Assembly: GCA_021156245.1 (NCBI GenBank)
Contig: JAJNBO010000027.1
Coordinates: forward strand, 1 to 11,980
DNA length: 11,980 nt
Direction: 5' to 3'
Origin: Ramlibacter sp.
GTDB taxonomy: Bacteria; Pseudomonadota; Gammaproteobacteria; Burkholderiales; Burkholderiaceae_C
The notes under the pieces are model-generated. The model was not told where the DNA came from. It was given only the letters and a program-made list of their open reading frames with translations, and did no database searches. Both the position numbers and the translations under genes were made by a program. Of the stretch, positions 186 through 11,655 are shown piece by piece (within the stretch, counting starts at the first letter, position 1; each line of letters opens with the position of its first letter).

Positions 186-216
186 GATTCGTGTGTCCGT
201 GGCTGGTGCACGAATC
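186..216. repeat. Perfect 8-bp inverted repeat GATTCGTG / CACGAATC
   Basis: GATTCGTG at 186-193 is the exact reverse complement of CACGAATC at 209-216, separated by 15 bp. It lies 25-55 bp upstream of the penicillin-binding protein start at 161, so it could be an operator dyad or a stem in that gene's 5' leader. No run of T follows on either strand, so an intrinsic terminator is unlikely. The function is unknown. Confidence 0.5.
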
Positions 217-240
217 TAGGTGGCCCGGCCGTGGCGCGAC

Positions 241-247
241 TGTAGGA
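241..247 (+). promoter_or_regulatory. TGTAGGA box, copy 1
   Basis: TGTAGGA lies in the 134-158 bp gap between the penicillin-binding protein gene and the end of the response regulator gene, about 80 bp upstream of the former. It reads TGTAGGACGGCTGCGCGA, so only one half of the longer dyad seen elsewhere in the window is recognisable. It is called a regulatory site because the same heptamer recurs in all four intergenic regions. Confidence 0.35.
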
Positions 248-266
248 CGGCTGCGCGACGGAAGGG

Positions 267-293
267 CGGCTTTGCTCCGAACCTGTAAAGCCG
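267..293 (-). terminator. Possible weak hairpin terminator after the response regulator gene
   Basis: CGGCTTT (267-273) pairs with AAAGCCG (287-293) around a 13-nt loop, about 27 bp beyond the stop of the response regulator gene as read on the minus strand. A GGGC/GCCC extension is possible with a small bulge. There is no U-tract after the stem, so it would be at best a weak or factor-assisted terminator. Confidence 0.25.
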
Positions 294-319
294 TTGCCCG
301 AGCGACCGATGTAAAGCCG
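284..319 (+). repeat. Direct repeat TGTAAAGCCG x2
   Basis: The 10-mer TGTAAAGCCG occurs at 284-293 and again at 310-319, 26 bp apart start to start, directly beyond the 3' end of the response regulator gene. The first copy also forms the right arm of the hairpin at 267-293. The pair could bind a protein or be a tandem duplication relic. Nothing else supports a function. Confidence 0.4.
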
Positions 320-964
320 CTATTCGAACGGATCGGCGAGCCCGTGCTTCAGGGCGTAGCGCAGCATCTCGGTCGCATTGGAAAGGCCCAGCTTCTGCAT
401 GAGGTTCGCCTTGTGCGTGCTGACCGTCTTGACCGACAGGTTCAGTTTCTGGGCGATGTCGGACACCGCTTCGCCCGCCACCAGCAGCCGCAACACCTGG
501 AATTCCCGGTCCGACAGGCTCTCGTGCGGCAGCGCGCCGCCACCGCCCGGCATGGCGCCCAGCGCGAGCTGCTCGGCCACTTCCGAGGAGATGTACGCGC
601 CGCCGGCCGCGATCTTGCGGATCGCCTGCTCCAGTTGCGCGGGCGCGCTTTCCTTCGTCAGGTAGCCGCTGGCGCCCGACTTGATCGCCCGCACGGCGTA
701 CTGCGTCTCCTGGTGCATGCTCAGGACCAGGATGCGCAGCCTGGGCTTCTCCGCCTTCACCAGCTTGATCAGCTCCATGCCGCTGCGCCCGGGCATCGAG
801 AGGTCCAGCACCAGCACGTCGAACTCGGTCTCGCGCACGACGCGCATCACCTCGGTGCCGTCCGCGGCTTCCCCGGCGACGGTGAAGTCGGCGGCGTCCC
901 CGACGATGCGCTTGAGGCCTTCCCGCACGATGGCGTGGTCGTCCGCCAGGACGATGCGGATCAT
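320..964 (-). CDS. NarL/FixJ-family response regulator (receiver + LuxR-type HTH)
   Basis: This 214-residue DNA-binding response regulator has a receiver at about 1-120 and a LuxR-type helix-turn-helix at about 148-210. The receiver is complete: acidic pair D8-D9 in VLADDH, phospho-acceptor D54 in VLDLSMPG, S82 and K104 in YLTKES. The output domain has the usual LSDREFQVLRLLVAG and VKTVSTHKANLMQKLGL recognition helix. The start is the ATG at 964, which overlaps the stop of the upstream kinase gene as ATGA and has AGGGAG 8 nt upstream, so the two genes are translationally coupled. The kinase is the cytoplasmic HisKA_3 type that normally pairs with this family. Once phosphorylated, it is expected to bind DNA as a dimer. 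Target genes are not known; the TGTAGGA boxes in this window are candidates. The role is secure, the pathway is not. Confidence 0.93.
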   Translation of the reverse strand: MIRIVLADDHAIVREGLKRIVGDAADFTVAGEAADGTEVMRVVRETEFDVLVLDLSMPGRSGMELIKLVKAEKPRLRILVLSMHQETQYAVRAIKSGASGYLTKESAPAQLEQAIRKIAAGGAYISSEVAEQLALGAMPGGGGALPHESLSDREFQVLRLLVAGEAVSDIAQKLNLSVKTVSTHKANLMQKLGLSNATEMLRYALKHGLADPFE

Positions 965-2016
965 GCGCCGGCTCCCTGGAAGGGGAGACGGGCCTCGACG
1001 CGGGTGCCGGCGCCGGGGTTGCTCTCGATGCGCAATTCGCCGTGCATCAGCTGGGCGCGCTCGCGCAGTCCGACCAGGCCGAGCGACTGCGGCTTGCGCG
1101 GCCCGCCCGGGTGGAACCCCACGCCGTCGTCCTGCACGCTGAGCACCAGCTGGTCGCCCTGCCGGTGCACCGCGACCCGGGCCCGGTCCGCGCGCGCGTG
1201 CTTGCCCACATTGGCCAGCGACTCCTGGACGATGCGGAAGACGCCGGTTGCCATCGGTTCCTCCAGCTCCAGCGACTCGTCGATGTCCAGTTCGCACGGC
1301 ACCCCGGTGCGTTGCGTGAAGCTCTGCACCACCCACTCGATCGCGGCGACCAGTCCCAGGTCGTCCAGCACCAGCGGCCGCAGGTCCGCGGCGATGCGCC
1401 GCACGGAGGCCACGGCCCCGTCCAGCAGGGCGAGCATCTGGGCGACCTTGGCCTGCGCCTGCGCGTCGGCGGCCGCGTGGTCGCGCAGCCAGATCGTGTC
1501 CATCTTCAAGGCCGTCAGCGACTGCGCAAGCTCGTCGTGCAGTTCGCGGGCGATGCGGGACTTCTCCTGTTCGCGCACGCCGGAAGATTCCGCCGCGAAC
1601 GACGCCAGCTCCTGGCGCGCTCGCACGCGCTCGGTGACGTCGCGCAGGATCACGGTGTACAGCTTGCCCTCCGGCGCATTCAGCTGCGAGATCGACGCGT
1701 CGATCGGGAACTCCTCGCCGTCCTTGCGCAGCGCGTACAGGACCGTGTTGTCGCCCATCCGCCGGGACGTCGTGCCGGTGGCGCCGAAGCGGCGCACCTG
1801 CCGCCCGTGGCCCGCGCGGTACCGTTGCGGGATCAGCACGTCGAGCGGCTTGCCCTGGATCTCCTCCGCGGTCCAGCCGAACATCTTCTGCGCGGCGCGG
1901 TTGAACAGGATGACGCGCTGTTCGTCGTCGACGCTGATGATCCCGTCCATCGCGGAATCGAGCAGCCCCGCGAGGCGAGCCGCGGCGGTGCCATCAGGCG
2001 TGGAAGAAAAGGTCAA
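961..2016 (-). CDS. PAS-domain sensor histidine kinase, HisKA_3/NarX type, cytoplasmic
   Basis: This 351-residue kinase partners the adjacent response regulator gene (ATGA overlap). A PAS domain covers about 14-130 (SAMDGIISVDDEQRVILFN, ending in the usual TVILRDVTER). A HisKA_3 dimerisation domain follows, with the phospho-His at H160 in IARELHDELAQSL. The HATPase domain is intact: N box QESLANVGKHA (N269), G1 box DDGVGF (297-301) and G2 region GLVGLRERAQLMHGEL. No signal peptide or membrane segment is seen, so it probably senses a cytoplasmic ligand or redox state through PAS; the ligand is unknown. There is no good ATG. I favour the TTG at 2016 because GAGGGAC lies 11 nt before it. The reading frame also extends to a TTG at 2058, which would add 14 residues but has no ribosome binding site. 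The start is the least certain part. Confidence 0.9.
   Translation of the reverse strand: MTFSSTPDGTAAARLAGLLDSAMDGIISVDDEQRVILFNRAAQKMFGWTAEEIQGKPLDVLIPQRYRAGHGRQVRRFGATGTTSRRMGDNTVLYALRKDGEEFPIDASISQLNAPEGKLYTVILRDVTERVRARQELASFAAESSGVREQEKSRIARELHDELAQSLTALKMDTIWLRDHAAADAQAQAKVAQMLALLDGAVASVRRIAADLRPLVLDDLGLVAAIEWVVQSFTQRTGVPCELDIDESLELEEPMATGVFRIVQESLANVGKHARADRARVAVHRQGDQLVLSVQDDGVGFHPGGPRKPQSLGLVGLRERAQLMHGELRIESNPGAGTRVEARLPFQGAGA
972..977 (-). promoter_or_regulatory. Ribosome binding site inside the kinase 3' end for the response regulator
   Basis: AGGGAG on the minus strand, 7-8 nt before the ATG at 964, lies inside the last codons of the kinase gene. It supports coupled translation across the ATGA overlap. 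Confidence 0.6.
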
Positions 2017-2089
2017 TGCGCGCTCGTCCCTCTGGTGCTGGCGCAAATTACAGCACAAGCGCCCGCGCGCACTCGCGCCGCCGTCCGCG

Positions 2090-2096
2090 TCCTACA
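2090..2096 (-). promoter_or_regulatory. TGTAGGA box, copy 2
   Basis: TGTAGGA on the minus strand (TCCTACA as written), in the divergent gap between the kinase gene (start 2016) and the kinase-like gene (start 2178). It is followed by CG, as in copy 1 at 241 (both TGTAGGACG). The partner half-site is not obvious. The position suits control of either divergent gene. I could not assign -35/-10 hexamers with confidence in this gap. Confidence 0.35.
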
Positions 2097-2177
2097 CCTC
2101 GCCCCGGGACGTCCTGACATTCGATACGGAACTGACGGCCCAGACTCGCTTCCAACCTGATCATCAAGAACCAAGAA

Positions 2178-2924
2178 GTGTTGGCCATCGACCCCATCCT
2201 CACCACGCCCGCCGGCGCCACGCCGCCGGTCGCGGATGCGTCGCCGCAGCGCCTGCGCAGCCTCGCGCGGGCCGCGCAGCACGACATCCTGCGCCGGCTG
2301 ACGCCGCCGCTGAGGCACGACATGGTGGTCCACCTGCAGTCGCTGGGCATGATGGCCGAAGCGCTGAGCGCGCGCATGGAGCGCGGCACGGTCGACTCCG
2401 ACGACCTGCAAGGTTCGATGTCCAAGCTCAACCGCCTCTCGCGGCAGGCCGTGTCCCGCTGCCTGGAGGTCTGCACCTGGATGGAGCCTGGCGAGGACGA
2501 CGGCGCCACGCTGCGCGAGGGCGTGTCGGAAGTGGTCCGCCTGCTCTCGACCAGCCTCAACTTCCGCGGATTCGACCTGCGCACGGAGCTGGGTGACGGC
2601 GACTTCGCCGTCTCTCGCAGCGCCGTGCGTTTCCTGCTGGCCGCCGCGATCCTCACGCTCGCCGATTCGGCCACGGCGCCCGGTGACATCGTGGTGCGCA
2701 CGGAGCTGTCCTCGTCGTTCGGGGTTATCGCGATCGAGTACCAGGCCCAGCCCGAAGGCACCTTCACGCAGATGCACGAACAGGGAGAGGCGCCGCTCGC
2801 CTGGGCCGAGGTGCAGGCGCTGGCCGTTCAGCACGACGCCGAGTTGCTGCGCAACGGCAATGCCATCATCCTGCGCCTGCCGCGCGCCGTGGTCACGACA
2901 CCTCTGAAGATGGTTCCGGTGTGA
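2178..2924 (+). CDS. Histidine-kinase-like protein without ATP-binding motifs (possible phosphotransfer protein)
   Basis: A 248-residue soluble protein of no named family that I can assign. A helical region at about 24-100 contains PLRHDMVVHLQSLGMMAEAL, which resembles a kinase H-box with a candidate phospho-His at H47; a second His-Asp pair lies at H35. A region at about 110-236 has the order of an HATPase fold (RFLLAAAILTLADSA where an N box would lie; a final strand NGNAIILRLPRA), but the N-box Asn and the DxGxG motif are missing, so ATP binding looks unlikely. This combination recalls phosphotransferases such as ChpT, though I cannot show homology. It is divergent from the kinase/response regulator operon. 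The start is GTG 2178 or TTG 2181, each with only a weak AAGAA before it. Its last 32 bp overlap the convergent GGDEF-EAL gene. Confidence 0.7.
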   Translation: MLAIDPILTTPAGATPPVADASPQRLRSLARAAQHDILRRLTPPLRHDMVVHLQSLGMMAEALSARMERGTVDSDDLQGSMSKLNRLSRQAVSRCLEVCTWMEPGEDDGATLREGVSEVVRLLSTSLNFRGFDLRTELGDGDFAVSRSAVRFLLAAAILTLADSATAPGDIVVRTELSSSFGVIAIEYQAQPEGTFTQMHEQGEAPLAWAEVQALAVQHDAELLRNGNAIILRLPRAVVTTPLKMVPV

Positions 2925-5373
2925 GCGCGGCGCCCGGCCCCCGCTGGGCATCCAGGAAGGCTTCCAGGCTGGCGATGGGCAACGGGCGGCAGTACAGGTA
3001 GCCCTGGTACCGTTCGCAGCCCTGGCGTGCCAGGAACGCGCGCTGCTCCTCGGTCTCCACGCCCTCGGCGATCACGTCCAGATTCAGGCTGCGGCACAGG
3101 CCGATGATCGTGCCGGCGATCGCGGCATCGTTGCTGTCCACCAGGATGTCCTTGACGAACGCGCGGTCGATCTTCAGCTCGTCGATGGGCAGCCGCTTGA
3201 GGTATGACAGCGACGAGTAGCCGATGCCGAAGTCGTCCACCGAAAGGCGCACCCCCATGTCCTTGAGGTTGCGCATCTTGGCGATCGCGGCGTCCAGGTT
3301 GTCTGCGAGAAGGCTTTCCGTGACCTCCAGCTTGAGCCGATCCGGGCGGATGCCGGCGCGGCGCACGCAGGTCACCACCTCGTCGATGAAGTCGGGATGG
3401 CGGAACTGGCGCACGCTGACGTTGACCGCGATGGTCAGGTGGCTGCGGTCCGGGCGCTTGCCCCATTCCGCGAGCTGCGCGCACGCCGCTTCGAGCACCC
3501 AATGGCCGATGGGGATGATCAGCGAGGTCTCCTCCGCCGTGGGGATGAACTCGTCCGGCCCGACGATCCCGCGGGTCGGATGCTCCCAGCGCAGCAGGGC
3601 CTCGACACCGGCCATGCGGCCGTCCATGCCCACCTGCGGCTGGTATTCGATCTTCAGCTGGTTCTCCCGCCAGCCCTGGCGCAGGTCCGCGGCCAGCGCC
3701 GCATTCGCGGTCGCCACCTCCTGCATCTCCGGGTCGAAGAAGCGCACCGCGTTGCGGCCGGCGGCCTTGGCCTGGTACATCGCGAGGTCCGCCTGCTTGA
3801 GCAGCTCGCTGACGCTGGATGGCGCCTTGCCGAACAGCGTCACGCCGATGCTGCAGGTGCTGTGGTGCAGGTAGCCGGGCAGCACGTAAGGCTCGCCGAG
3901 GCCTTCCAGGATCCGCTGGCTGACCTTCTCGGCGGCGGTGAGCGGGTCCAGCGGCTTGTCGGGCCGGTTCTCCAGCAGCACCACGAACTCGTCGCCACCG
4001 AGCCGCGCCACCAGGTCGCCCTTCGCCACGCAGTTGCGCAACCGGCGCGCCACCTGTTGCAGCAGCAGGTCGCCCTTCTGGTGGCCCAGGGTGTCGTTGA
4101 GCACCTTGAAGTTGTCGAGGTCGATGAACATCAGCGCGCCTTCGCACGCGTGCCCGCTCTCCCCCACCGCTTCGTGCAGCCGGTCGAGCAGCATCTGGCG
4201 ATTGGGCAGCTGGGTCAGCGGATCGTAGAAGGCCAGGTACTGGATCTTCTCCTCGTCCCGCTTGCGCTCCGTGATGTCGCGGCCCACCGCCACCCAGTGC
4301 GTGAGGCGGCGCGCGTCGTCCCACACCGGCGACACATCCAGGTCCACCCAGTACGGCTCGCCCGCCTTGGTGTAGTTGATCAGGTCGACCCGCACGCGCT
4401 CCCATTGCTCCAGGGCGGCGCGGATGCGATCGAGCTGGGCGCGTTGCGTATCCGGCCCTTGCAGGATGCGCGGCGAACGGCCGATCACCTCGTCGCGGGT
4501 GTAGCCGGTGCGGCGCTCGAACGCTTCGTTCACGAACACGATGCGCGGACCGGGCGCCCGGAAGGGAGCAGCCTCCGTGATGATGACGATGTCGTTCAGG
4601 CGGGCGATGCTGCCTTCCAGCAGCACCAGGTGCTGCTGCGCGCGCCGCCGCGCGCTGACGTCGCGCAGGTGGAGCGCGAGGCCGGCGCCGAAGGGGAAGC
4701 CGCGCAGCTCCAGCCAGTGGCTGACTTGCGCGTCCAGTTCCTCCAGCTCGATCGCCTCGCGATGTTCCAGCGCGTGCATGAAGCGCTCCTCCAGCACGAG
4801 GCGGGCCCGCTTCTGGAAGAAGCTCCAGATCTTGCGTCCCAGGATGGCCTCGCCCGCGGCGAGCATCTGCTCGGCCTGGTCGTTCGCGTAGCTGATGCGT
4901 CCCTGGCGGTCGATGGTGACGAAGGCCTCGCCGCTGCCCAGCGCGCCGCCCATGCTGACGGTGTGCCGCATGAGCGTTCCGGGGGCATGGCCGGGTGGTG
5001 CGATCTCCTGCACCAGCCCCTCGGCACCGGAGAGGCTGCCGTCCGCGGCGCGCAGCGGCTGGCCCACGCAGCGCACCCACACGCGCCGGCCCTGCATGGA
5101 ATGCAGCTGCACCTCGACGTCGAATGGGACGCCCTGCTCCCGGCACGCGCGCATGCGCGACTCGAGCTCGGCGCGGTGTTCTTCCGCGTAGTGGCCCAAT
5201 GCGTTGTCGAAAGCAGGCGTGTAGCCGGGGGGGGCGCCGTGCAGGCGCGCGAGCTGCTCCGACCAGTACAGGCTGCCCTGCTGCGCGTCGAGCCGCCAGA
5301 AGCCGATGAAGGCGCTGCGCTCCACAAGCTGCAGCAGGCGGGCGGCGTGGTTGTCTGTCGTCACGGAGTCCAT
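2893..5373 (-). CDS. PAS-PAS-PAS(LOV-like)-GGDEF-EAL cyclic-di-GMP synthase/phosphodiesterase
   Basis: An 826-residue cytoplasmic protein that probably makes and degrades c-di-GMP. PAS-like sensory regions lie at about 12-126, 140-245 and 255-370. The third reads like a LOV domain (GRSPRILQGPDT, INYTKAGEPYWVDLDVSPV) but has Pro301 where the photoactive Cys should be. GGDEF at about 378-548 carries an intact GGDEF motif at 459-463 and the usual DLDNFKVLND. The inhibitory I-site RxxD is lost, with Ala450 where Arg is expected. EAL at about 558-810 keeps E591-A-L, N651, E683, D713-D714 (SVDDFGIGYSS), K734 and E770 (AEGVETE), so phosphodiesterase activity is expected. The start is ATG 5373, preceded by GGGGA. 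It diverges from the receiver gene at 5525 across a gap with a TGTAGGA dyad. Which activity dominates cannot be read from sequence. Confidence 0.93.
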   Translation of the reverse strand: MDSVTTDNHAARLLQLVERSAFIGFWRLDAQQGSLYWSEQLARLHGAPPGYTPAFDNALGHYAEEHRAELESRMRACREQGVPFDVEVQLHSMQGRRVWVRCVGQPLRAADGSLSGAEGLVQEIAPPGHAPGTLMRHTVSMGGALGSGEAFVTIDRQGRISYANDQAEQMLAAGEAILGRKIWSFFQKRARLVLEERFMHALEHREAIELEELDAQVSHWLELRGFPFGAGLALHLRDVSARRRAQQHLVLLEGSIARLNDIVIITEAAPFRAPGPRIVFVNEAFERRTGYTRDEVIGRSPRILQGPDTQRAQLDRIRAALEQWERVRVDLINYTKAGEPYWVDLDVSPVWDDARRLTHWVAVGRDITERKRDEEKIQYLAFYDPLTQLPNRQMLLDRLHEAVGESGHACEGALMFIDLDNFKVLNDTLGHQKGDLLLQQVARRLRNCVAKGDLVARLGGDEFVVLLENRPDKPLDPLTAAEKVSQRILEGLGEPYVLPGYLHHSTCSIGVTLFGKAPSSVSELLKQADLAMYQAKAAGRNAVRFFDPEMQEVATANAALAADLRQGWRENQLKIEYQPQVGMDGRMAGVEALLRWEHPTRGIVGPDEFIPTAEETSLIIPIGHWVLEAACAQLAEWGKRPDRSHLTIAVNVSVRQFRHPDFIDEVVTCVRRAGIRPDRLKLEVTESLLADNLDAAIAKMRNLKDMGVRLSVDDFGIGYSSLSYLKRLPIDELKIDRAFVKDILVDSNDAAIAGTIIGLCRSLNLDVIAEGVETEEQRAFLARQGCERYQGYLYCRPLPIASLEAFLDAQRGPGAALTPEPSSEVS

Positions 5374-5419
5374 GTCGGGTTCCCCATCTTACGGTCGCCA
5401 TGCGCGGGCCGGGAAAACC

Positions 5420-5435
5420 GTAGGCAGCTTCCTAC
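5420..5435. promoter_or_regulatory. TGTAGGA dyad, copy 3: GTAGG-N6-CCTAC operator candidate
   Basis: GTAGGCAGCTTCCTAC is a perfect 5-bp inverted repeat with a 6-bp spacer. Its right arm completes TCCTACA (5430-5436), the minus-strand TGTAGGA. The outer 18-mer read on the minus strand, TGTAGGAAGCTGCCTACG, matches the dyad at 11051-11068 at 15 of 18 positions. It lies 47 bp upstream of the GGDEF-EAL start and about 90 bp upstream of the receiver start, so it could control both. The geometry resembles NarL/FixJ-family boxes such as the GacA box TGTAAG-N6-CTTACA. Confidence 0.5.
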
Positions 5436-5461
5436 ATGCAAACGCGTAGCCGTCCGAGAAG

Positions 5462-5499
5462 TTCAGCAGTAAGCAGGCTTAGAGTGCCTTACGGCTGAA
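5462..5499. repeat. 38-bp imperfect palindrome upstream of the receiver gene
   Basis: TTCAGCAGTAAGCA (5462-5475) pairs with TGCCTTACGGCTGAA (5485-5499), giving 13 base pairs with one A/G mismatch and one bulged C around a 9-nt loop. A smaller perfect palindrome, TAAGC-AG-GCTTA (5470-5481), is nested in its left half. It ends 25 bp before the GTG of the receiver gene, so it may be an operator dyad or a 5'-leader hairpin. No T-run follows, which argues against a terminator. Confidence 0.45.
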
Positions 5500-5524
5500 A
5501 CCGAACATTACCGACTGGGCTTCC

Positions 5525-5947
5525 GTGCAACTCGCAGTATTCGTGGTGGAGGACAACGCGGAGATCCAAGAGAACCTCGTGGGTGCCCTGGAGGAACTGA
5601 CCTGCGTGCGCGTGGTCGGCGCCAGCGCCACCGAAGACGACGCCCTGGACTGGATCGCGCGCCACGCCGACTGGGACATGCTGATCGTCGACCTGTTCCT
5701 CAAGGGCGGCAGCGGGATGCGGCTGGTGCAGCGCGTGCAGCGCGCACGGCCCGACCAGAAGATCATCGTCTTCAGCAACTACGTGAATTCCAGCGTGCGC
5801 AAGCGGTGCGCGCAGCTTGGCGTGGACGCCGTGTTCGACAAGTCCACCGAAATCGACGCACTGGTGGACTATTGCTCCCACCAGTGCACCCAGCTGGGCG
5901 CGCAGGCCGCGCTCGGCACCGCACACCCTCCCGGAGGACCCGCATGA
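5525..5947 (+). CDS. Receiver-only (CheY-like) response regulator
   Basis: A 140-residue single receiver domain with all phosphorylation residues: acidic pair E9-D10 in VVEDN, phospho-acceptor D56 in LIVDLFLKGGSGM, S84 in VFSNYV and K106 in FDKSTE. No output domain follows; the tail after about 120 is short and low-complexity (GTAHPPGGPA). It should therefore act by protein contact or as a phosphate shuttle. The receiver looks closer to NarL-type receivers (KGGSGM loop) than to chemotaxis CheY. The start is GTG 5525, because the first strand begins right after it (QLAVFVVED); no strong Shine-Dalgarno is seen. The stop overlaps the next start as ATGA, and the two products are presumably made together. 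A TGTAGGA dyad and a 38-bp palindrome lie upstream. Its kinase is not obvious; the degenerate downstream partner is unlikely to phosphorylate it. Confidence 0.9.
   Translation: MQLAVFVVEDNAEIQENLVGALEELTCVRVVGASATEDDALDWIARHADWDMLIVDLFLKGGSGMRLVQRVQRARPDQKIIVFSNYVNSSVRKRCAQLGVDAVFDKSTEIDALVDYCSHQCTQLGAQAALGTAHPPGGPA
5933..5938 (+). promoter_or_regulatory. Strong ribosome binding site for the pseudo-kinase gene
   Basis: GGAGGA ends 5 nt before the ATG at 5944 and lies inside the last codons of the receiver gene. It fixes the start at 5944 rather than at in-frame upstream codons and fits coupled translation across the ATGA overlap. Confidence 0.75.
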
Positions 5948-7170
5948 ACAAGACCGCCGAAGCCCCCAGCCCGTCGCTGGCCCTGCCCGAAACGAGCGCG
6001 CCCGCCGACGCGGCGCCTGTCCTGGGCCGTCGCTGGTCCGACAGCGCCGGCGCCTACGTTCCCACCGATCCGAACGCGGCCTGGTCCATGTCGCAGCAGT
6101 GGCCGAACCTGGTCGCCGCGCTGTCGGAGCAGGCCGTCGAAAGCAGCAACCTGCTGCTGCGGGCGTTGAACTACCTGGTGGGCGCCGGACGCCTGCGCCG
6201 CAGCGAAGCCAAGGCGCTTTCGGACGCGATGCACCAGCTGCGCGGCACGAGCCTGCGCGCGCAGCAGATCACGCGCCTGGCCAGCGGTCGGGTCCGGCAG
6301 GCGCGCGAACGCGTCGACCTGGCCGAACTGGTGCGCCACGTCCTGGAAGACCGGGCCGGCGAACTCGAGACGGCCGGCGTCGGCATCACGAGCGACCTCG
6401 AGGGCGTCGACGTGCTGCTCGACCCGCCGGTGGCGATCAGCCTGATCAACAGCATCGTCGACTGGGCCATGAGCTTCAGCAAGCAGGTGCACCTCTCCCT
6501 CGCGCAGGCAGAGTGGCCGAGGCCGGCGCAGCTGAAGGTGCGCGTGACGACCCCGCCGCCTGCGCAGCCAGCCCATCCCGGTGGCGTCGGCTGGACGGTC
6601 CGGCAGCGCGGCCGGCGCCTCAACGACGGCCTGCACTGGATGCTGCTGCGGCAGATCGCCGCGTCCTCTGCGCTGGCGGTGGTGCGCTCCCGCGAGGAAG
6701 GCGCCGCCGTGCTGACCATCGACTTCCCCAAGACCTTCGTCAGCACCGAGGGCGTGGCGTGCCTCGAGCTCACCGACAGCAACGGCAACGCGTCGGCGCC
6801 GCTGCGGGACACGTGGGTCCTGGTGGTCGCCAGGGACGAACGCATCCGCACGGAAGCGCTCGATGCATTGCGCAAGATGGGCATCCAGGCCGTGGCCGAA
6901 AAGGACATGGAACGCGCGCGCGCGGCCATCGTCGACACGCGGCCGAACGTGCTGGTCACCGGCTATGACGTGCCGGCCGACGAAGTCGCGGCCTTCCGCC
7001 GCGACGTCCTGGGAGGCGAGGAGCGGTGCCCGCTGGTCGAGATCACGCGGGAGATGCCCTCCTTCCACCTGAACGGCTTCGACCGCTTCGAAACGCCGAA
7101 GGTGGGCCGCGAGCAGTTGACGGCGGAACTGCCGCCGACGGTGCTGTTCGAGCTCGTGAAGGTGGTCTAG
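5944..7170 (+). CDS. Pseudo-histidine kinase fused to a pseudo-receiver domain
   Basis: A 408-residue soluble protein in which every catalytic landmark of a hybrid kinase seems lost. After a disordered head (1-50), a dimerisation-like helical region (about 56-135) ends in RERVDLAELVRHVLED, typical of the DHp-to-ATPase junction, but no H-box His is seen. The HATPase-like part (about 136-265) has SIVDWAMSFSK where an N box is expected, with Trp for Asn, lacks DxGxG, and ends GLHWMLLRQIAASSALAVV ... AAVLTIDFP, mirroring a G2 box without its glycines. The C-terminal part (about 289-408) resembles a receiver: VLVVARDER has A-R for the acidic pair, NVLVTGYDVP has Gly340 at the phospho-Asp position, and FETPK replaces the TKP lysine region. 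It is probably a scaffold or allosteric partner of the receiver at 5525. I know no named family for it. Confidence 0.75.
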   Translation: MNKTAEAPSPSLALPETSAPADAAPVLGRRWSDSAGAYVPTDPNAAWSMSQQWPNLVAALSEQAVESSNLLLRALNYLVGAGRLRRSEAKALSDAMHQLRGTSLRAQQITRLASGRVRQARERVDLAELVRHVLEDRAGELETAGVGITSDLEGVDVLLDPPVAISLINSIVDWAMSFSKQVHLSLAQAEWPRPAQLKVRVTTPPPAQPAHPGGVGWTVRQRGRRLNDGLHWMLLRQIAASSALAVVRSREEGAAVLTIDFPKTFVSTEGVACLELTDSNGNASAPLRDTWVLVVARDERIRTEALDALRKMGIQAVAEKDMERARAAIVDTRPNVLVTGYDVPADEVAAFRRDVLGGEERCPLVEITREMPSFHLNGFDRFETPKVGREQLTAELPPTVLFELVKVV

Positions 7171-7185
7171 GAGACGCGGCCGGGG

Positions 7186-9075
7186 TCAGGGTCCGAGCGG
7201 TCCCGCCGCCAGCATCCGCGCCAGGGCATCGGCCGGAACGGGCGGGCTGTACAGGAAGCCCTGCGCCAGGTCGCACCCGAGCGCGCGCAGGGCGGCAGCC
7301 TGCGCCTCGGTCTCCACCCCCTCCGCCACCACCGACAGGCTCAGGCCGCGCGCGAGCGACACGCAGGTGCGCACGATGCCTTCATAGGCGGCGCCGGCGG
7401 TGATCTTGCGGACGAACGCGCGGTCGATCTTCAGCTCGTCGACCGGCAGCGTGACGATGTACGCCAGCGAGGAATAGCCCGTCCCGAAATCGTCGATGGC
7501 CACGGGAACGCCGAGCGCCCGCACCTGCGTGAGCACGTCGATCGCCCGTTCCATGTTGCCGATCAGGACGCTCTCCGTGATCTCGATGCCCAGCGCCGAC
7601 GGGTCGCCCTGCAACGCAGCGAGCGCGCGTCGCAGCGCGGGCACGAAGTCGTCGTTGCGCAGCTGCGCGGCCGCGACGTTGACCGCGATGCGGGGCGCGG
7701 CCAGTCCCGCGTCGCGCCAGCCTTGCCAGTCGTCGATCGCGCGTTCCATGATCTTCTGCGCCACGGCGCCGATCAGCCCCGTCGTCTCCAGCGCGGGCAC
7801 GAACTCGTTCGGGGGCACGAGGCCGCGCTGCGGGTGCATCCAGCGGACCAGCGCCTCCACGCCGACGATGCGGCCGGTGGCGAGCTCCACCTTGGGCTGG
7901 TAGTAGTTGACGAACTCCGATCGCTCCAGCGCGCGACGCAGCTGCGGCTCGAGCCGGAAGTGCATGCTGAGCACGTTGTCCACGCTGCGGTCGAAGAACG
8001 CCATCGGCTGCTCGCGCTCGATCGCGACCTGCAGCGCCGCGTCCGCCGCGTTGACGACCTCGTCGAGCGTGCGGCCATCGTCCGGGAACGACGCGAAGCC
8101 CAGGTTGACCGGACATGCGAGGGACAGCGCGTTCACCTGGTAGGGGCGCGCCAGGCTGCTGGCGATCTCCAGCGCCTCGGCGCGCGCGAACTCCTCCGGG
8201 CGTGCCTGCGGGAAGAACAGGATGAACAGGCCGCGCTTGACGCGGCCGACCAGGGTGCCGCGCTGCCCGAACACGCGCAGCCGGTCGGCCGCCTGCTGGA
8301 TCAACGCGTCGGCCACTCGAAATCCGTGCGCGGAATTGATCTGGTTGATGGTCTTCAGCCGGATGAAGCAGGCCATGCCCCGGTCCGCCTTGTGCTGCTC
8401 GAACGTGGACTCGAAGTGGAACCAGTTCGACAGGCCGGTCAGCCGGTCCGTTTCGGTGGCGATGCGCAGCTGGCGCCGCAGCAGCAGGTGGCTGGACACG
8501 GCCCGCGCCAGCGTGACCAGCGCGTCGCGCTGCATCGCATCGAGCTTGCGGGCCACGTGGTCCATCACGCACAGCGTGCCGATCGCGCTGCCGTCGCGGG
8601 TGCGCAGCGGCACGCCAGCGTAGAAGCCGAGCGTCGGGCCGTTCGTGCCCCAGGGTTGTGCATCGGCCCATCCAAGCCGCGCGACGTCCGGGATCTCCAG
8701 CAAGCGCCCCGGCTCGAGGATGGCATGCGCGCAGAAGGATTTGTCGCGGCCCACCTCCGGCACCGGCAGGCCGATGCGGGACTTGTACCACTGGCGCTCG
8801 CCGTCCACGAGCGTCAGCGCCGCCATCGGCGTTCCGCACAGCGACACGGCCAGCTGCACGAACCGGTCGCAGTCTTCGTCAGGGCCGGAATCGAGGACGC
8901 CGAAGGCGTGCAGGTCCGCGATGCGCTGCGGCTCGTCGGCGGGCGGCAGGGCGGCCGTGTACAGCCAGGCGGATCGCATGCTCGTGCGCGCTTTGCCGCG
9001 TGGGCGCCCGTCCCGCTCGAACACCAGCGCCGGTTGACTGCCGGCGGATGCGCTTCGGGAATGGACGGCGGACAT
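7186..9075 (-). CDS. GAF - degenerate GGDEF - EAL cyclic-di-GMP phosphodiesterase
   Basis: A 629-residue cytoplasmic protein. A GAF sensor domain spans about 50-200 (FGVLDSGPDEDCDRF, DKSFCAHAIL, GFYAGVPLRT, GTLCVMD). A GGDEF-fold domain at about 205-365 is degenerate: KRGLF (280-284) replaces GGDEF, and the metal-binding DxD region reads FIRLKTINQIN, so cyclase activity should be absent. The EAL domain (about 372-622) looks active: E407-A-L, N466, E498, D528-D529 in AIDDFGTGYSS, K549 and E585 in AEGVETE are all present. Prediction: a c-di-GMP phosphodiesterase tuned by a GAF ligand and perhaps by nucleotide bound to the dead GGDEF. The start is ATG 9075, because GGGAG lies 5 nt upstream. A later ATG at about 8976 would still keep GAF. 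It follows the FimV-like gene by 14 bp (one operon) and ends 15 bp from the convergent pseudo-kinase gene. Confidence 0.92.
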   Translation of the reverse strand: MSAVHSRSASAGSQPALVFERDGRPRGKARTSMRSAWLYTAALPPADEPQRIADLHAFGVLDSGPDEDCDRFVQLAVSLCGTPMAALTLVDGERQWYKSRIGLPVPEVGRDKSFCAHAILEPGRLLEIPDVARLGWADAQPWGTNGPTLGFYAGVPLRTRDGSAIGTLCVMDHVARKLDAMQRDALVTLARAVSSHLLLRRQLRIATETDRLTGLSNWFHFESTFEQHKADRGMACFIRLKTINQINSAHGFRVADALIQQAADRLRVFGQRGTLVGRVKRGLFILFFPQARPEEFARAEALEIASSLARPYQVNALSLACPVNLGFASFPDDGRTLDEVVNAADAALQVAIEREQPMAFFDRSVDNVLSMHFRLEPQLRRALERSEFVNYYQPKVELATGRIVGVEALVRWMHPQRGLVPPNEFVPALETTGLIGAVAQKIMERAIDDWQGWRDAGLAAPRIAVNVAAAQLRNDDFVPALRRALAALQGDPSALGIEITESVLIGNMERAIDVLTQVRALGVPVAIDDFGTGYSSLAYIVTLPVDELKIDRAFVRKITAGAAYEGIVRTCVSLARGLSLSVVAEGVETEAQAAALRALGCDLAQGFLYSPPVPADALARMLAAGPLGP

Positions 9076-9080
9076 GGATG

Positions 9081-9085
9081 CTCCC
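9081..9085 (-). promoter_or_regulatory. Ribosome binding site for the GAF-EAL gene
   Basis: GGGAG on the minus strand, 5 nt before the ATG at 9075, fills the 14-bp gap after the FimV-like gene. It supports the 9075 start over downstream ATGs. Confidence 0.6.
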
Positions 9086-9089
9086 GCCG

Positions 9090-10988
9090 TCACCGGCGCG
9101 CGGTCGGCATGCGCTCGTACGCCATCACCGCGCTGAACCTCTCCTCTTCCTCCTGTTGGCGGCGTTGCCGGGCGGCGCGCTCCTGCGCTTCCCGGGCGGC
9201 AGCGTGGATCTCGGCGATCAGCGGAGCGACGTGCCGCTGCGGCGGAGCCCACCCAAGGTCGATATCGACGCCGGGGAGGCTGCCCTCATCGACGTCCGCG
9301 GCGGGCGCCATTCCGCACCCCGCGCCGGCCGCATCCCCGCCATGGGCCCATGGTGCGATCGCGTGGCCCTCGCCGTCCACCGGAGTGGACGCTTCGGCGC
9401 CCGCCAGCTCCAGGGCCAGGCCGTGCAGGCACAGCAGGTCGCGCCCGGCCTGCAGCGTCAGTGAGCCGGCCGCCGGCATGGAGAAGAGCGCGTGCTCGAT
9501 CTCCTGCGCCACGCCCGGCGTGTTCCATGCGGTGACGATGCGCTTGCTGAGCACGCCCAGACTTTCCAGCGGGACGGACGCCGTCACCTCGTCCAGCCGC
9601 GGCGCTTCCACCCCGAACAGCTGCGCATAGCGCCGGCGCACCGCGGCATCGGCGACGGCGTCCTGCGCCTGTTCGCACAGGCGCATCAGTTCGAAGAAGG
9701 CGAGCGGCGCCGGGCTCGCGCTGTCCTGCACGTAGCGCTGCAGCAGGTCCGCGGCATCCGCCGAGAGCCCGAGCGACGAGAGGAATTCCACCTGCTCGAA
9801 AACGGCGGCAAGCGTCTCCACGCGCAAGGCGGGCGTATCCGCGGACGCCGTGACGGCACTCTCCGCTACCGGCACCGCGACATGGCTTGGCGGCGACTCG
9901 GCTGACGGTGCGGGTGCCGGCGAGGATCCGGCCACGCGCTGCGGTGGCACGGACGGCGTGTCGTCGTGCGCATGGGGTTCTGCCGGGAGAACCGGCGCCT
10001 GCGCGTACCAGCGCTCGGACTCGCTGCGGCGCGTCCGCGTCCAGAGCACCCCGGCGGCCGCGAACGATGCCAGCAGGAACACGGCCAGCGCCTGCAGCGT
10101 ACCGGTGGAGTCGTACCAGGGCTGGGCGGAATCCAGCCGCTGCCGCAGCGCCGCGATCTGGGCGCGCGTCTGGCCGTCGTTCTGCCGCAATTGCGCCAGC
10201 TCGCGCTCCACGTTCTGCAACAGCACCGTGGTCCGCAGCACTTCCTGCGGATCCGCGTTGATCGCCTGCCAGAGCAACGCGGCGGTCGCTCGCCGCGCGA
10301 CGTCCCCCGCCGGGGCGGCGAGCTGGGCGCTCGCCCGGAGCAGCGTGCTGCCGTCCACCTCGATCGGCTCCAGCCGAAGCCGCGGCCGCGCCTGGACAGG
10401 CGCAGCCGGCAACGCCTGCCTGGGAGCGGCGCGCGCCGGCCTGACGCGCGGAGCGGCTGGGGCAGTGGGCGCGGCGGCCCCGGGCGCCGCGGTGAGCCGC
10501 AGCGGCGACGCGGCAGGAGCAGCGGCCGCGACGGCGGCCATTGCCAATGACAGCGGCGGCGCAGGGGGTGTGGCCCACGGGCGCTGCGCGGCCAGGACGG
10601 CGACGACCTGCTCCGAAGGGAGTTCGGGCAGCAGGGTGTAACTGCGGGTGATCGCGCCATGGCAGCCCGCCCGCACGGAAACCCTCACGATGGGTTCGTC
10701 GATCAAGGCGTCCGTCTCGATGCGCACCCGCTTCTGCAACGGATCGCTGCCGAGGATGGTCGCCCGGACACGGTGGGGCGGCAACCTCGCATCGCCGAAG
10801 AACACGTCGGCCTGCACGCACTCGTCGCGCACGTCCGCGGAGGCGAACCGCGCCGGCACCGTCATTTCGAGCGGGCGTCCGATCCAGGCGCTTGCGGAAG
10901 GGGTTCCGAGCGACTGGGCGTACGCCCCGCCGCACGCTCCCAACAGCAGGAGTAGCAGGATGTGGCGGGACGTAAGCAACTTTTTCAT
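9090..10988 (-). CDS. FimV-like single-pass inner-membrane protein with TPR-like C-terminal region
   Basis: A 632-residue protein laid out like FimV/HubP polar hub proteins. It has an N-terminal signal sequence (MKKLLTSRHILLLLLLGAC) with possible cleavage after AYA at 24; LGAC at 16-19 could alternatively be a lipobox. A periplasmic domain (about 26-120) starts SLGTPSASAWIGRPLEMTVP, like the FimV N-terminal domain. An Ala/Pro-rich linker covers about 138-205, a coiled coil about 245-290, one membrane helix about 297-316 (TLQALAVFLLASFAAAGVLW), and a cytoplasmic linker is followed by a TPR-like helical region at about 388-490. A charged helix (AREAQERAARQRRQQEEEER) sits near the C-terminus. 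The LysM domain of true FimV is missing. Start: ATG 10988; an in-frame TTG 30 bp upstream looks false. It is upstream of, and 14 bp from, the GAF-EAL phosphodiesterase gene, suggesting a membrane-localised link to c-di-GMP. The FimV assignment is by layout, not certain homology. Confidence 0.65.
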   Translation of the reverse strand: MKKLLTSRHILLLLLLGACGGAYAQSLGTPSASAWIGRPLEMTVPARFASADVRDECVQADVFFGDARLPPHRVRATILGSDPLQKRVRIETDALIDEPIVRVSVRAGCHGAITRSYTLLPELPSEQVVAVLAAQRPWATPPAPPLSLAMAAVAAAAPAASPLRLTAAPGAAAPTAPAAPRVRPARAAPRQALPAAPVQARPRLRLEPIEVDGSTLLRASAQLAAPAGDVARRATAALLWQAINADPQEVLRTTVLLQNVERELAQLRQNDGQTRAQIAALRQRLDSAQPWYDSTGTLQALAVFLLASFAAAGVLWTRTRRSESERWYAQAPVLPAEPHAHDDTPSVPPQRVAGSSPAPAPSAESPPSHVAVPVAESAVTASADTPALRVETLAAVFEQVEFLSSLGLSADAADLLQRYVQDSASPAPLAFFELMRLCEQAQDAVADAAVRRRYAQLFGVEAPRLDEVTASVPLESLGVLSKRIVTAWNTPGVAQEIEHALFSMPAAGSLTLQAGRDLLCLHGLALELAGAEASTPVDGEGHAIAPWAHGGDAAGAGCGMAPAADVDEGSLPGVDIDLGWAPPQRHVAPLIAEIHAAAREAQERAARQRRQQEEEERFSAVMAYERMPTARR

Positions 10989-11001
10989 GGCGCTTACAGA
11001 C

Positions 11002-11008
11002 TGTAGGA
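11002..11008 (+). promoter_or_regulatory. TGTAGGA box, copy 4
   Basis: TGTAGGAAGCT, 14 bp upstream of the FimV-like start. It shares 11 consecutive bases with the minus-strand reading of the 5420-5435 dyad (TGTAGGAAGCT). A related half-site, CTTACA (10993-10998), lies 3 bp to its left in inverted orientation, giving CTTACA-GAC-TGTAGG. Being so close to the start codon, it would overlap the leader or repress initiation. Confidence 0.4.
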
Positions 11009-11028
11009 AGCTCTGCAAGGCCGAAGGG

Positions 11029-11037
11029 GTAGGAATC
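11029..11037 (+). promoter_or_regulatory. Variant box GGTAGGAATC between copies 4 and 5
   Basis: GTAGGAATC here is repeated exactly at 11052-11060. Together with 11003-11009 it forms a row of three GTAGGAA elements in the same orientation, with start-to-start spacings of 26 and 23 bp. On the minus strand these read as GATTCCTAC, GATTCCTAC and GCTTCCTAC leading toward the FimV-like gene. The first base of the TGTAGGA heptamer is G instead of T here. Confidence 0.35.
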
Positions 11038-11050
11038 GCTGCGCTTCCCT

Positions 11051-11068
11051 TGTAGGAATCCGACTACG
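11051..11068. promoter_or_regulatory. TGTAGGA dyad, copy 5: GTAG-N8-CTAC operator candidate
   Basis: TGTAGGAATCCGACTACG contains GTAG (11052-11055) and CTAC (11064-11067) with the same 16-bp overall length as the dyad at 5420-5435, and matches that site at 15 of 18 positions in the appropriate orientation. It lies 63-80 bp upstream of the FimV-like start and about 165-180 bp upstream of the universal stress protein gene. A promoter in this gap serving the FimV/phosphodiesterase operon is the simplest reading. Confidence 0.5.
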
Positions 11069-11110: not shown

Positions 11111-11199
11111 CGAAGCGGTCAAGGCCGACACCTGCTGCTGGGCAGCGAACCCAGCATGTCCTGACCCATGGCAACATCCCGGTGCTGGTCCTGCGCTGA
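11111..11199 (+). pseudogene. Decayed 3' end of a universal stress protein gene (frameshifted remnant)
   Basis: Reading from 11111 gives RSGQGRHLLLGSE, and after a shift of one base near 11148 the frame continues TQHVLTHGNIPVLVLR and stops at TGA 11197-11199. This is the C-terminal signature of UspA-family proteins: the RSG-x-GR-x-LLLGS nucleotide-binding loop followed by HVLxxxxIPVLVL. It parallels the end of the intact gene just downstream (LLGSVAQNVLTTCDIPVLLVK). The rest of the gene is missing; the bases before 11111 show no clear Usp sequence. So this is a truncated and frameshifted relic, probably from an ancestral tandem usp pair. The perfect hairpin TGCTGGG/CCCAGCA (11136-11156) spans the shift point. 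A single-base error in the assembly could create the frameshift but not the missing 5' part. Confidence 0.6.
11136..11156. repeat. 7-bp perfect inverted repeat TGCTGGG / CCCAGCA
   Basis: TGCTGGG (11136-11142) and CCCAGCA (11150-11156) form a GC-rich stem around the 7-nt loop CAGCGAA. It coincides with the frameshift of the usp remnant. There is no T-run, so it is not a typical terminator. It may only be what remains of a coding sequence. Confidence 0.35.
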
Positions 11200-11232
11200 C
11201 CGGCTTTCCGCAACCAGAAGAAAGAGCCCCCC

Positions 11233-11655
11233 ATGAAGATCGTCTTGGCCGCCGATGGCAGCAGCTACACCAAGAAGGCCCTCGCCTATCTCGTCACGCA
11301 TGAGGAATTCGCCGGCGCCGACGCCGAGATCGTCGTCGTCAACGTGCAGCCGGCGGTGCCACCCCGCGTCCGGAGCATGGTCGGCGCGGGGGCGGTGAAC
11401 GACTACCACCGCGAGGAATCCGAGAAGGTCCTCAAGCCGATCGAGAAGTTCCTCGCGCGCCACGACCTGCGCTACACCTCGCGATCCGCCGTGGGCTCGC
11501 CCGGCACCGAGATCGTGAAGGTGGCGAACAAGGAGAAGGCGCACCTGATCGTCATGGGCACGCACGGCCACGGCATCCTGGGCCGCGCCCTGCTCGGCAG
11601 CGTGGCGCAGAACGTCCTGACCACCTGCGACATCCCGGTGCTGCTGGTGAAGTAA
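11233..11655 (+). CDS. Universal stress protein, UspA family, ATP-binding type
   Basis: A 140-residue single Usp domain, a typical full length. It starts MKIVLAADGSSYTKKAL with the conserved first strand and Asp8. It carries the nucleotide-binding pattern G-2x-G-9x-G-S as G109-TH-G112-HGILGRALL-G122-S123, and ends NVLTTCDIPVLLVK. Usp proteins of this type are small cytoplasmic dimers that bind ATP and raise survival under starvation, redox or other stress; the exact role here is unknown. The start is ATG 11233 with a purine-rich AGAAGAAAGAG tract just upstream. A broken paralogue lies immediately before it, and the ribonucleotide reductase gene follows after 10 bp, so these two may be co-transcribed. 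Regulation by the distant TGTAGGA boxes is possible, but they are closer to the divergent FimV-like gene. Confidence 0.93.
   Translation: MKIVLAADGSSYTKKALAYLVTHEEFAGADAEIVVVNVQPAVPPRVRSMVGAGAVNDYHREESEKVLKPIEKFLARHDLRYTSRSAVGSPGTEIVKVANKEKAHLIVMGTHGHGILGRALLGSVAQNVLTTCDIPVLLVK

Follow-up and report, generated by a model that had tools for sequence, protein, structure and literature searches.

Here, we analysed a short DNA element, the heptamer TGTAGGA (TCCTACA on the opposite strand), in a signalling cluster of Ramlibacter sp. that lies within a stretch of 11,980 nucleotides, hereafter the window. The cluster encodes a NarL-type response regulator (RR1) with its adjoining histidine kinase, a kinase-like protein (HKl), a PAS-GGDEF-EAL protein (GE1), a receiver-only protein (REC), a FimV-like protein and a universal stress protein (Table 1). 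The initial annotation of this DNA had reported five exact heptamers confined to the gaps between genes, where fewer than one copy would be expected, and had read them as the operators of a small, self-contained regulon served by RR1.

Heptamers of the signalling cluster and their conservation

All five heptamers were found where they had been reported (at 241, 2090, 5430, 11002 and 11051), and all five are intergenic by our gene calls. Dinucleotide shuffling of the window gave a mean of 0.10 copies, and five copies were reached in none of 200 shuffles. The two dyads that had been described alongside the heptamers also exist and agree at 15 of 18 positions. The observation is right, and stronger than the initial annotation had claimed. 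The copy at 11002 stands 13 nt ahead of the ATG of the FimV-like gene (10988) and falls inside a longer, TTG-started open reading frame of the reading-frame list, which is disfavoured because the MKK-type ATG start is shared with the related loci L009 and L013. Set against the density elsewhere in the genome, the heptamer is concentrated in the window (5 copies against 0.37 expected, Poisson P 4e-5), a value that is post hoc because the heptamer was chosen from the window itself.

A search for relatives of the kinase, of which the best 80 loci were kept, provided eight loci of the Ramlibacter type (L009-L016), whose cluster order is the same as far as each reaches. Conservation in orthologous gaps, which had been proposed as a check on the motif, was observed throughout the window and these eight loci. 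The heptamer is kept in the GE1/REC gap and in the HKl gap at 9/9 loci, in the gap of the left gene at all eight loci that cover it (L012 ends before the gap), and at the promoter-distal position of the FimV gap at 3/3 loci covered. Its distance to the start codon is near constant: 53-56 nt for the left gene, 55-62 nt for GE1, 78-85 nt for HKl and 61-62 nt for the promoter-distal site of the FimV-like gene. The counterpart of the 11002 copy in L009 and L013 reads TTCTTACA and is not an exact heptamer. On the HKl strand, TCCTACA is followed by a conserved CCTGACA and then by -10-like letters (CAGACT in the window) in the window and in L009-L016. Apart from these loci, kinases 54-64% identical to the Ramlibacter one were found on contigs titled Bordetella parapertussis and Gemmatimonadetes (L034, L083, L051), whose record names may be wrong.

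The cluster can also be recognised in genome G191, which retains HKl (45% identity), GE1 (67%), REC (72%) and GE2 (63%), together with a short gene that weakly resembles the FimV-like one (E 3e-6, 41% identity along 73 residues). TGTAGGA is present in all three corresponding gaps of G191, in one case within a dyad, GTAGGCAGTTTCCTAC, that is near-identical to the GE1/REC operator.

Table 1. Heptamer sites and genes of the window
Feature	Position	Strand	Remarks
Left-gene site TGTAGGA	241..247	+	TCCTACA on the left-gene strand, 55 nt before ATG at 185
TCCTACA-N22-TAGATT	213-247	-	Left-gene heptamer plus TAGATT
HKl half-site TGTAGGA	2090..2096	-	81 nt before HKl (2178); 9/9 loci
GE1/REC 16-bp palindromic operator GTAGGCAGCTTCCTAC	5420..5435	both	Heptamer 5430-5436 (-), 56 nt before GE1
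ATG-proximal TGTAGGA before the FimV-like gene	11002..11008	+	Exact in the window only
Third half-site GTAGGA of the FimV gap	11029..11034	+	Between the two heptamers; gene strand ATTCCTACC or CTTCCTACC in three loci
16-bp dyad GTAGGAATCCGACTAC, promoter-distal FimV-like site	11052..11067	both	Heptamer 11051-11057 (+); 3/3 loci covered
RR1, NarL-type response regulator	320..964	-	Response_reg + GerE (Pfam); candidate of the initial annotation
PAS-HisKA_3 histidine kinase adjoining RR1	961..2046	-	5' end uncertain; reading frame opens at 2058
HKl	2178..2924	+	Kinase-like by eye, no match in Pfam scan; box upstream
GE1, PAS-GGDEF-EAL	2893..5373	-	Box upstream
REC, receiver-only protein	5525..5947	+	Box upstream
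FimV-like gene	9090..10988	-	Name from the initial annotation, no match in Pfam scan; box upstream
Universal stress protein	11233..11655	+	Borders the FimV gap as well; box 179 nt away

In the gap between the FimV-like gene and the universal stress gene, positions 11152-11187 match the 3' end of the stress gene that follows (11608-11643) at 81% identity and a TGA comes soon after, such that the stretch 11152-11200 looks like a remnant of a second universal stress gene.

Genome-wide placement and phasing to the -10 hexamer

In the draft genome that contains the window (G000; 3.31 Mb, 69% complete), TGTAGGA occurs 106 times, mostly between genes, and a small regulon private to the cluster was therefore not borne out. 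The sample analysed, made up of the contigs that carry 100 listed copies, contains 102. Genes were called with our own codon-usage caller, which set some starts late and may have called false genes. A genome-wide scan had been suggested as the test of the motif, and the motif passed it: 75 of the 97 copies outside the window are intergenic where 9.6% would be expected (P 2.4e-56), and none of the other heptamers compared, those with 8 or more intergenic copies, ranks above TGTAGGA. The contigs of this genome had been selected for TGTAGGA, which biases the density and the ranking and leaves the split between coding and intergenic copies unaffected. An unbiased sample was provided by G191, as 40 evenly spaced 20-kb pieces (800 kb, about a fifth of the genome), where 45 of 53 copies were intergenic and 8 coding (P 6.6e-33) and the heptamer ranked 7 of 5,635. 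The six heptamers ranked above it (GTTTCAA, GTTGAAA, AACCCAC and CCCCACG among them) fit one long repeat, GTTTCAACCCACGCGCCCC-like, present in about 75-85 intergenic copies in the sampled pieces (L348-L387), which is perhaps a CRISPR array.

The sites are directional. Among sites with one possible target, TCCTACA lies on the gene strand in 33/45 cases in the draft genome of the window and in 20/22 in G191. At 25 of 118 sites, counting from the first T of TCCTACA, offset 28 is exactly where a -10-like hexamer begins, as TAnnnT in 17 and CAnnAT in 8, against means per offset of 0.51 and 0.29; a TAnnnT peak at offset 3 was disregarded, being the TA of the heptamer itself. On the opposite strand, no offset collected more than 4 hexamers. 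The remaining 93 of the 118 sites have no -10-like hexamer at the exact offset, and these count against the model set out below. The second half of TGTAGG-N6-CCTACA shows up as weakly conserved bases at +13 (C), +15 (A) and +17 (A), numbered from the T of TGTAGGA, and the best-conserved sites are 16-bp palindromes of the form GTAGKM-N4-KMCTAC. The sequence TGACA was found at offset 25 in 6 of the 118 sites, that of HKl in the window included. Our first reading of it as a -35 hexamer was dropped, and a variant half-site is more likely because 21 nt separate TGACA from the conserved CAGACT in the HKl promoters.

Intergenic placement, a fixed -10 distance (25/118) and conservation at orthologous promoters, as found here, characterise a class II operator. 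TGTAGGA almost certainly belongs to a genuine operator at which an activator would act, and the position of the heptamer is very probably that of class II contact with RNA polymerase.

Across 59 genomes of the genus, the median genome had 14 promoters carrying the box (box-promoters), compared with 5 matches to the reversed pattern used as control. Seven genomes are motif-poor, with at most three box-promoters (G181, G183, G185, G188, G189, G171 and G190).

The directionality of the box and its phasing to the -10 hexamer would also be expected of a promoter element read by an alternative sigma factor. A C before the -10 hexamer is a trait of sigma-S promoters, and C precedes 13 of the 21 TAnnnT hexamers at offsets 27-29; moreover, RpoS scored above its family cut-off in G000, G191, G146 and G145. 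However, the 21 bases between TCCTACA and the -10 hexamer are too many for a -35 hexamer, the usual spacing being about 17, and it is the palindromic sites that are best conserved. RpoS was also above the cut-off in the motif-poor G181 and G190 (and not in G183, G188 and G189); it was rejected as the explanation because these two motif-poor genomes possess it. We therefore consider a sigma-factor element very improbable. The abundance of intergenic copies could likewise suggest a mobile or repeat element of the REP (repetitive extragenic palindromic) kind that has spread between genes, but the copies share only the heptamer and a weak dyad while their flanks differ, and they stand at orthologous promoters at a fixed distance. 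In our view, orthologous conservation and -10 phasing refute this possibility, to which we assign next to no probability.

In the draft genome of the window, 98 genes were listed within 250 nt of a box, all of them protein genes, and three receiver-only genes with an upstream box were seen, REC among them. For 20 chosen targets, Pfam matches included CsbD, hemerythrin, FIST, MEDS, DUF883, cyclopropane-fatty-acid synthetase, a GlgC-like nucleotidyl transferase, a GAF histidine kinase, a receiver and SIS. Judged by eye, further targets would include Ku, UDP-GlcNAc epimerase and UDP-glucose dehydrogenase (L122, L137 and L120). This collection reads as a general-stress and biofilm set. Two points speak against that impression, namely that 7 of the 20 had no match in the Pfam scan and that the 20 genes were chosen, with no control set. 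Certain individual targets stood out. In Polaromonas eurypsychrophila (L111), three GTAG-N8-CTAC dyads at 1996, 2098 and 2153, within 175 bp, stand upstream of a gene that by eye is exopolysaccharide-like. Genes for a family of proteins of about 310 aa (MWEVLWHQSGT; L118, L144, L147 and L141) are closely preceded by a dyad in three genomes of Ramlibacter, one of which, that of R. aurantiacus, contains no other such dyad.

Candidate regulators

As the NarL-type regulator encoded inside the cluster, RR1 was the initial candidate for a protein that binds TGTAGGA and controls a small private regulon; the RR1 kinase-regulator pair is flanked by two boxes in a window that is a hot spot of the heptamer. 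This proposal is contradicted by the genome-wide spread of the motif and by the distribution of RR1 itself. RR1 is missing, its best match being at the level of the regulator RR2 described below, from G146, G163, G164, G187 and G191 (each at least 99% complete) and from G179 (85%), and these six genomes have 15, 20, 17, 7, 18 and 20 box-promoters, respectively, against 5, 4, 8, 3, 4 and 14 in the reversed control. Conversely, G181 encodes RR1 at 90% identity and has zero box-promoters. In G191, from which RR1 is missing genome-wide and the neighbouring kinase is missing from the cluster stretch (the only stretch searched for it), most of the cluster and its sites are kept. Furthermore, 51 of the 72 other loci of the RR1/kinase type (L017-L088) have no copy of TGTAGGA. 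RR1 is excluded as a necessary factor and strongly disfavoured as the sole regulator, and a private RR1 regulon is very unlikely.

The leading candidates for the binder are RR2, a near-invariant, GacA-like protein of 210 aa with receiver and GerE domains, and its paralogues. The recognition helix of RR2 is presumably GacA/UvrY-like. Of the 59 genus genomes, 50 encode a full-length RR2 of at least 94% identity; it is found at 90% in G147 and 84% in G190, as partial copies of 98-99% in G149, G160, G172, G182 and G195, and was not listed in the drafts G169 (80% complete) and G179 (85%). Such constancy (94-100% in the 50 genomes and about 90% in the Polaromonas locus L112) is unusual for a response regulator. 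Paralogues of the RR2 family with a box upstream of their own genes were found as RR3 (L119, L133) and RR2b (L331).

The best footprint of the operator was observed next to RR2. Among 20 loci chosen by RR2 alone, 13 contain an adjoining receiver gene, and the dyad GTAGKM-N4-KMCTAC stands upstream of that gene in 11 of the 13; the exceptions are L284, with a left half GTAGGG, and L291, with a single half-site. Four further loci with the dyad (L112 from Polaromonas, L123, L129 and L265) were not counted as tests because they were found through the motif. By eye, several of these promoters have an extra GCCTAC half-site further upstream, and in most a CAnAAT hexamer follows. A small RNA beside RR2 was considered and set aside, as the gap contains the antisense receiver gene.

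The motif-poor genomes are the difficulty for this assignment, and several findings weigh against it. RR2 is retained in all seven, at 94-99% in six and 84% in G190 (1 box-promoter), and because they keep it, RR2 alone cannot explain the distribution of the motif. In favour of the RR2 family, motif-poor genomes make up 7 of the 25 genomes without a second RR2-family copy and 0 of the 34 that possess one (Fisher 0.0014, with kinship left uncorrected); against it, 18 genomes without a second copy have more than three box-promoters. In G147 (100% complete), the only RR2-family copy is the one at 90%, with 5 box-promoters against 13 in the control. Our survey of regulators covered, among DNA-binding families, the GerE family only. 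Lastly, motif loss is tracked better by another NarL-type regulator, RR4 (L321), which is missing from 6 of the 7 motif-poor genomes (G181 gave a match of 60% and the rest gave none) and present in 46 of the 52 others (Fisher 1.3e-4).

The last observation bears on the possibility that the box is bound by another DNA-binding protein, either of the NarL type, such as RR4, or of another family, for example CRP/FNR. A survey of G191 gave 14 GerE matches, of which 11 were compared with three motif-poor genomes (L306, L333 and one match below the cut-off were left out), and RR4, L328, L331 and L332 had no close orthologue in these three. The receiver gene beside RR2 is missing in the motif-poor G183, G185, G188, G189 and G190; since five motif-poor genomes also lack this gene, some co-lost factor is plausible. 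The gene is missing as well in G154 (17 box-promoters, control 4) and G144 (12, control 7), and the motif-poor G181 has it with a perfect dyad. The arrangement GTAGG-N6-CCTAC would also suit other dimeric helix-turn-helix proteins. On the other hand, RR4 is missing from G193 and G155, two complete genomes rich in the motif, and occurs in the motif-poor G190, no box was seen in the stretches examined around it (L321, L347), and NarL-family regulators typically use half-sites in variable arrays. A different binder of this kind is a real possibility, albeit a rather doubtful one. Each of RR1, RR3, RR4 and the second RR2 copies was rejected as the sole binder, as motif-rich genomes lack them. A member of the NarL family is the probable binder, and for the RR2 family specifically we judge the chances to be about even.

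Relation to known operators and the proposed regulon

The initial annotation had likened the sites to boxes of the NarL/FixJ family. EvgA and BvgA, two NarL-family activators, recognise the half-sites TTCYTACA and TTTCCTA, respectively, which resemble the half-site letters TTCCTAC(A) seen here, but these half-sites point the opposite way within the dyad compared with the Ramlibacter one. Both RR2 and RR1 match the solved structures of VraR, NarL, EvgA and RcsB, and the match to EvgA is 1.5e-22 for RR2 and 6.2e-18 for RR1. The GTAGKM-N4-KMCTAC dyads are 18-bp inverted repeats with a 6-bp spacer, which is the frame of the GacA box. As given in the accessible part of the source (PMC4353343), that box, the upstream activating sequence of rsmY in Pseudomonas, reads TGTAAGCATTCTCTTACA; the two share the 18-bp inverted repeat TGTARG-N6-CYTACA, and the GacA box is bound by a NarL-family regulator. 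The likeness to the GacA box therefore stands for the frame and fails for the letters, which are GTAGG here and not GTAAG: the fifth base of each half is G/C in Ramlibacter and A/T in the GacA box, and TGTAAG is rare in the sample of the window's own genome, where it was about evenly divided between intergenic (9) and coding (10) copies. Unlike the GacA box, which has few sites, at genes for small RNAs that capture CsrA, the Ramlibacter box has about 100 copies at protein genes in class II position. The RcsAB box of enterobacteria is bound by RcsB together with RcsA. In the part of the literature on it that was available (PMC4325325), the box is given as TaAGaatatTCcta, with a repeated half-site at one promoter and biofilm targets. 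By eye, the inner 14 bp of the Ramlibacter dyad, TAgGA-N4-TCcTA, has the same geometry, whereas its third base is G or T where RcsAB has A, and it grows to 16-18 bp through a G and a C on its flanks. Judged by its letters, the operator appears to be built on the frame of the GacA and RcsAB boxes with its own letters, GTAGG, and by sequence is not a GacA box.

Beyond the genus, an order-wide search for box-promoters gave matches in 203 of 300 genomes, mostly 0-5 each, with 32 exceeding 5; in the top two, the listed matches are AT-rich and not above the control (28:28 in G235, 26:30 in G279). A family-wide search with GTAGGMNNNNKCCTAC (120 genomes) found matches in 50 genomes and no family-wide excess, with 95 matches against 126 for the reversed pattern. 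That pattern is a poor control, however, the reversed form of GTAGN8CTAC being 14 to 135 times commoner in 19 genomes. Four genomes of other genera, G078 (5:0), G123 (6:2), G071 (4:1) and G065 (3:0), may carry the box. In Polaromonas, the dyads that by eye match GTAGKM-N4-KMCTAC number 8 of 17 in G016 and 1 of 15 in G017. The box thus represents an operator of a common type put to use by one lineage; signs of it were also seen in one Polaromonas and perhaps in a few other genera. It was not found described in the titles and abstract openings of the literature searched, in which subscription journals are thinly covered, and this is weak evidence of novelty. The R. tataouinensis genome paper, as far as its available text goes, describes a highly complex two-component network (PMC3164672); when its main text was searched for the words 'promoter' and 'RpoS', both were absent.

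Our findings point to the following model. In an 18-bp operator, TGTAGG-N6-CCTACA (core GTAGKM-N4-KMCTAC), TGTAGGA/TCCTACA would form the strong half-site, with the heptamer starting 28 nt upstream of the -10 hexamer, at the usual place of the -35 element (about -40 to -34). From a heptamer placed against the -35 position it would follow that RNA polymerase is recruited by a dimeric activator bound in class II position. The second half would be degenerate at many promoters, and extra half-sites would have been added at some, such as those of the receiver gene beside RR2, of RR3 and of the FimV-like gene. The operator would mark a large regulon of the genus, with genes for stress, storage, envelope, exopolysaccharide, cyclic di-GMP and phosphorelay functions, of which the window would be one dense node. 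Its binder would most likely be not RR1 but a response regulator of the NarL/FixJ family that belongs to the GacA/UvrY-like RR2 group, in which some paralogues have the box in their own promoters. Taken as a whole, this model of a class II operator of a large genus regulon, most likely read by the RR2 family, is the one that we favour by a modest measure. The initial interpretation was half right: an intergenic box of NarL/FixJ likeness, conserved in orthologous gaps, holds, while the small regulon and RR1 as the needed regulator do not.

More tentatively, and with somewhat less than even confidence, Ramlibacter may run a general-stress and biofilm programme of about 100 promoters through an undescribed class II box, TCCTACA-N21-TAnnnT. 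Its readers would be GacA-like response regulators, an expanding family that includes itself among its targets together with three receiver-only proteins, and the programme would stand beside sigma-S control as its two-component counterpart or partner. Should this be true, a single short box would go far towards predicting the regulon for stress, storage and biofilm in a soil and desert genus, and the seven genus genomes that are nearly without the motif, all of which keep RR2, would represent a natural experiment in regulon loss.

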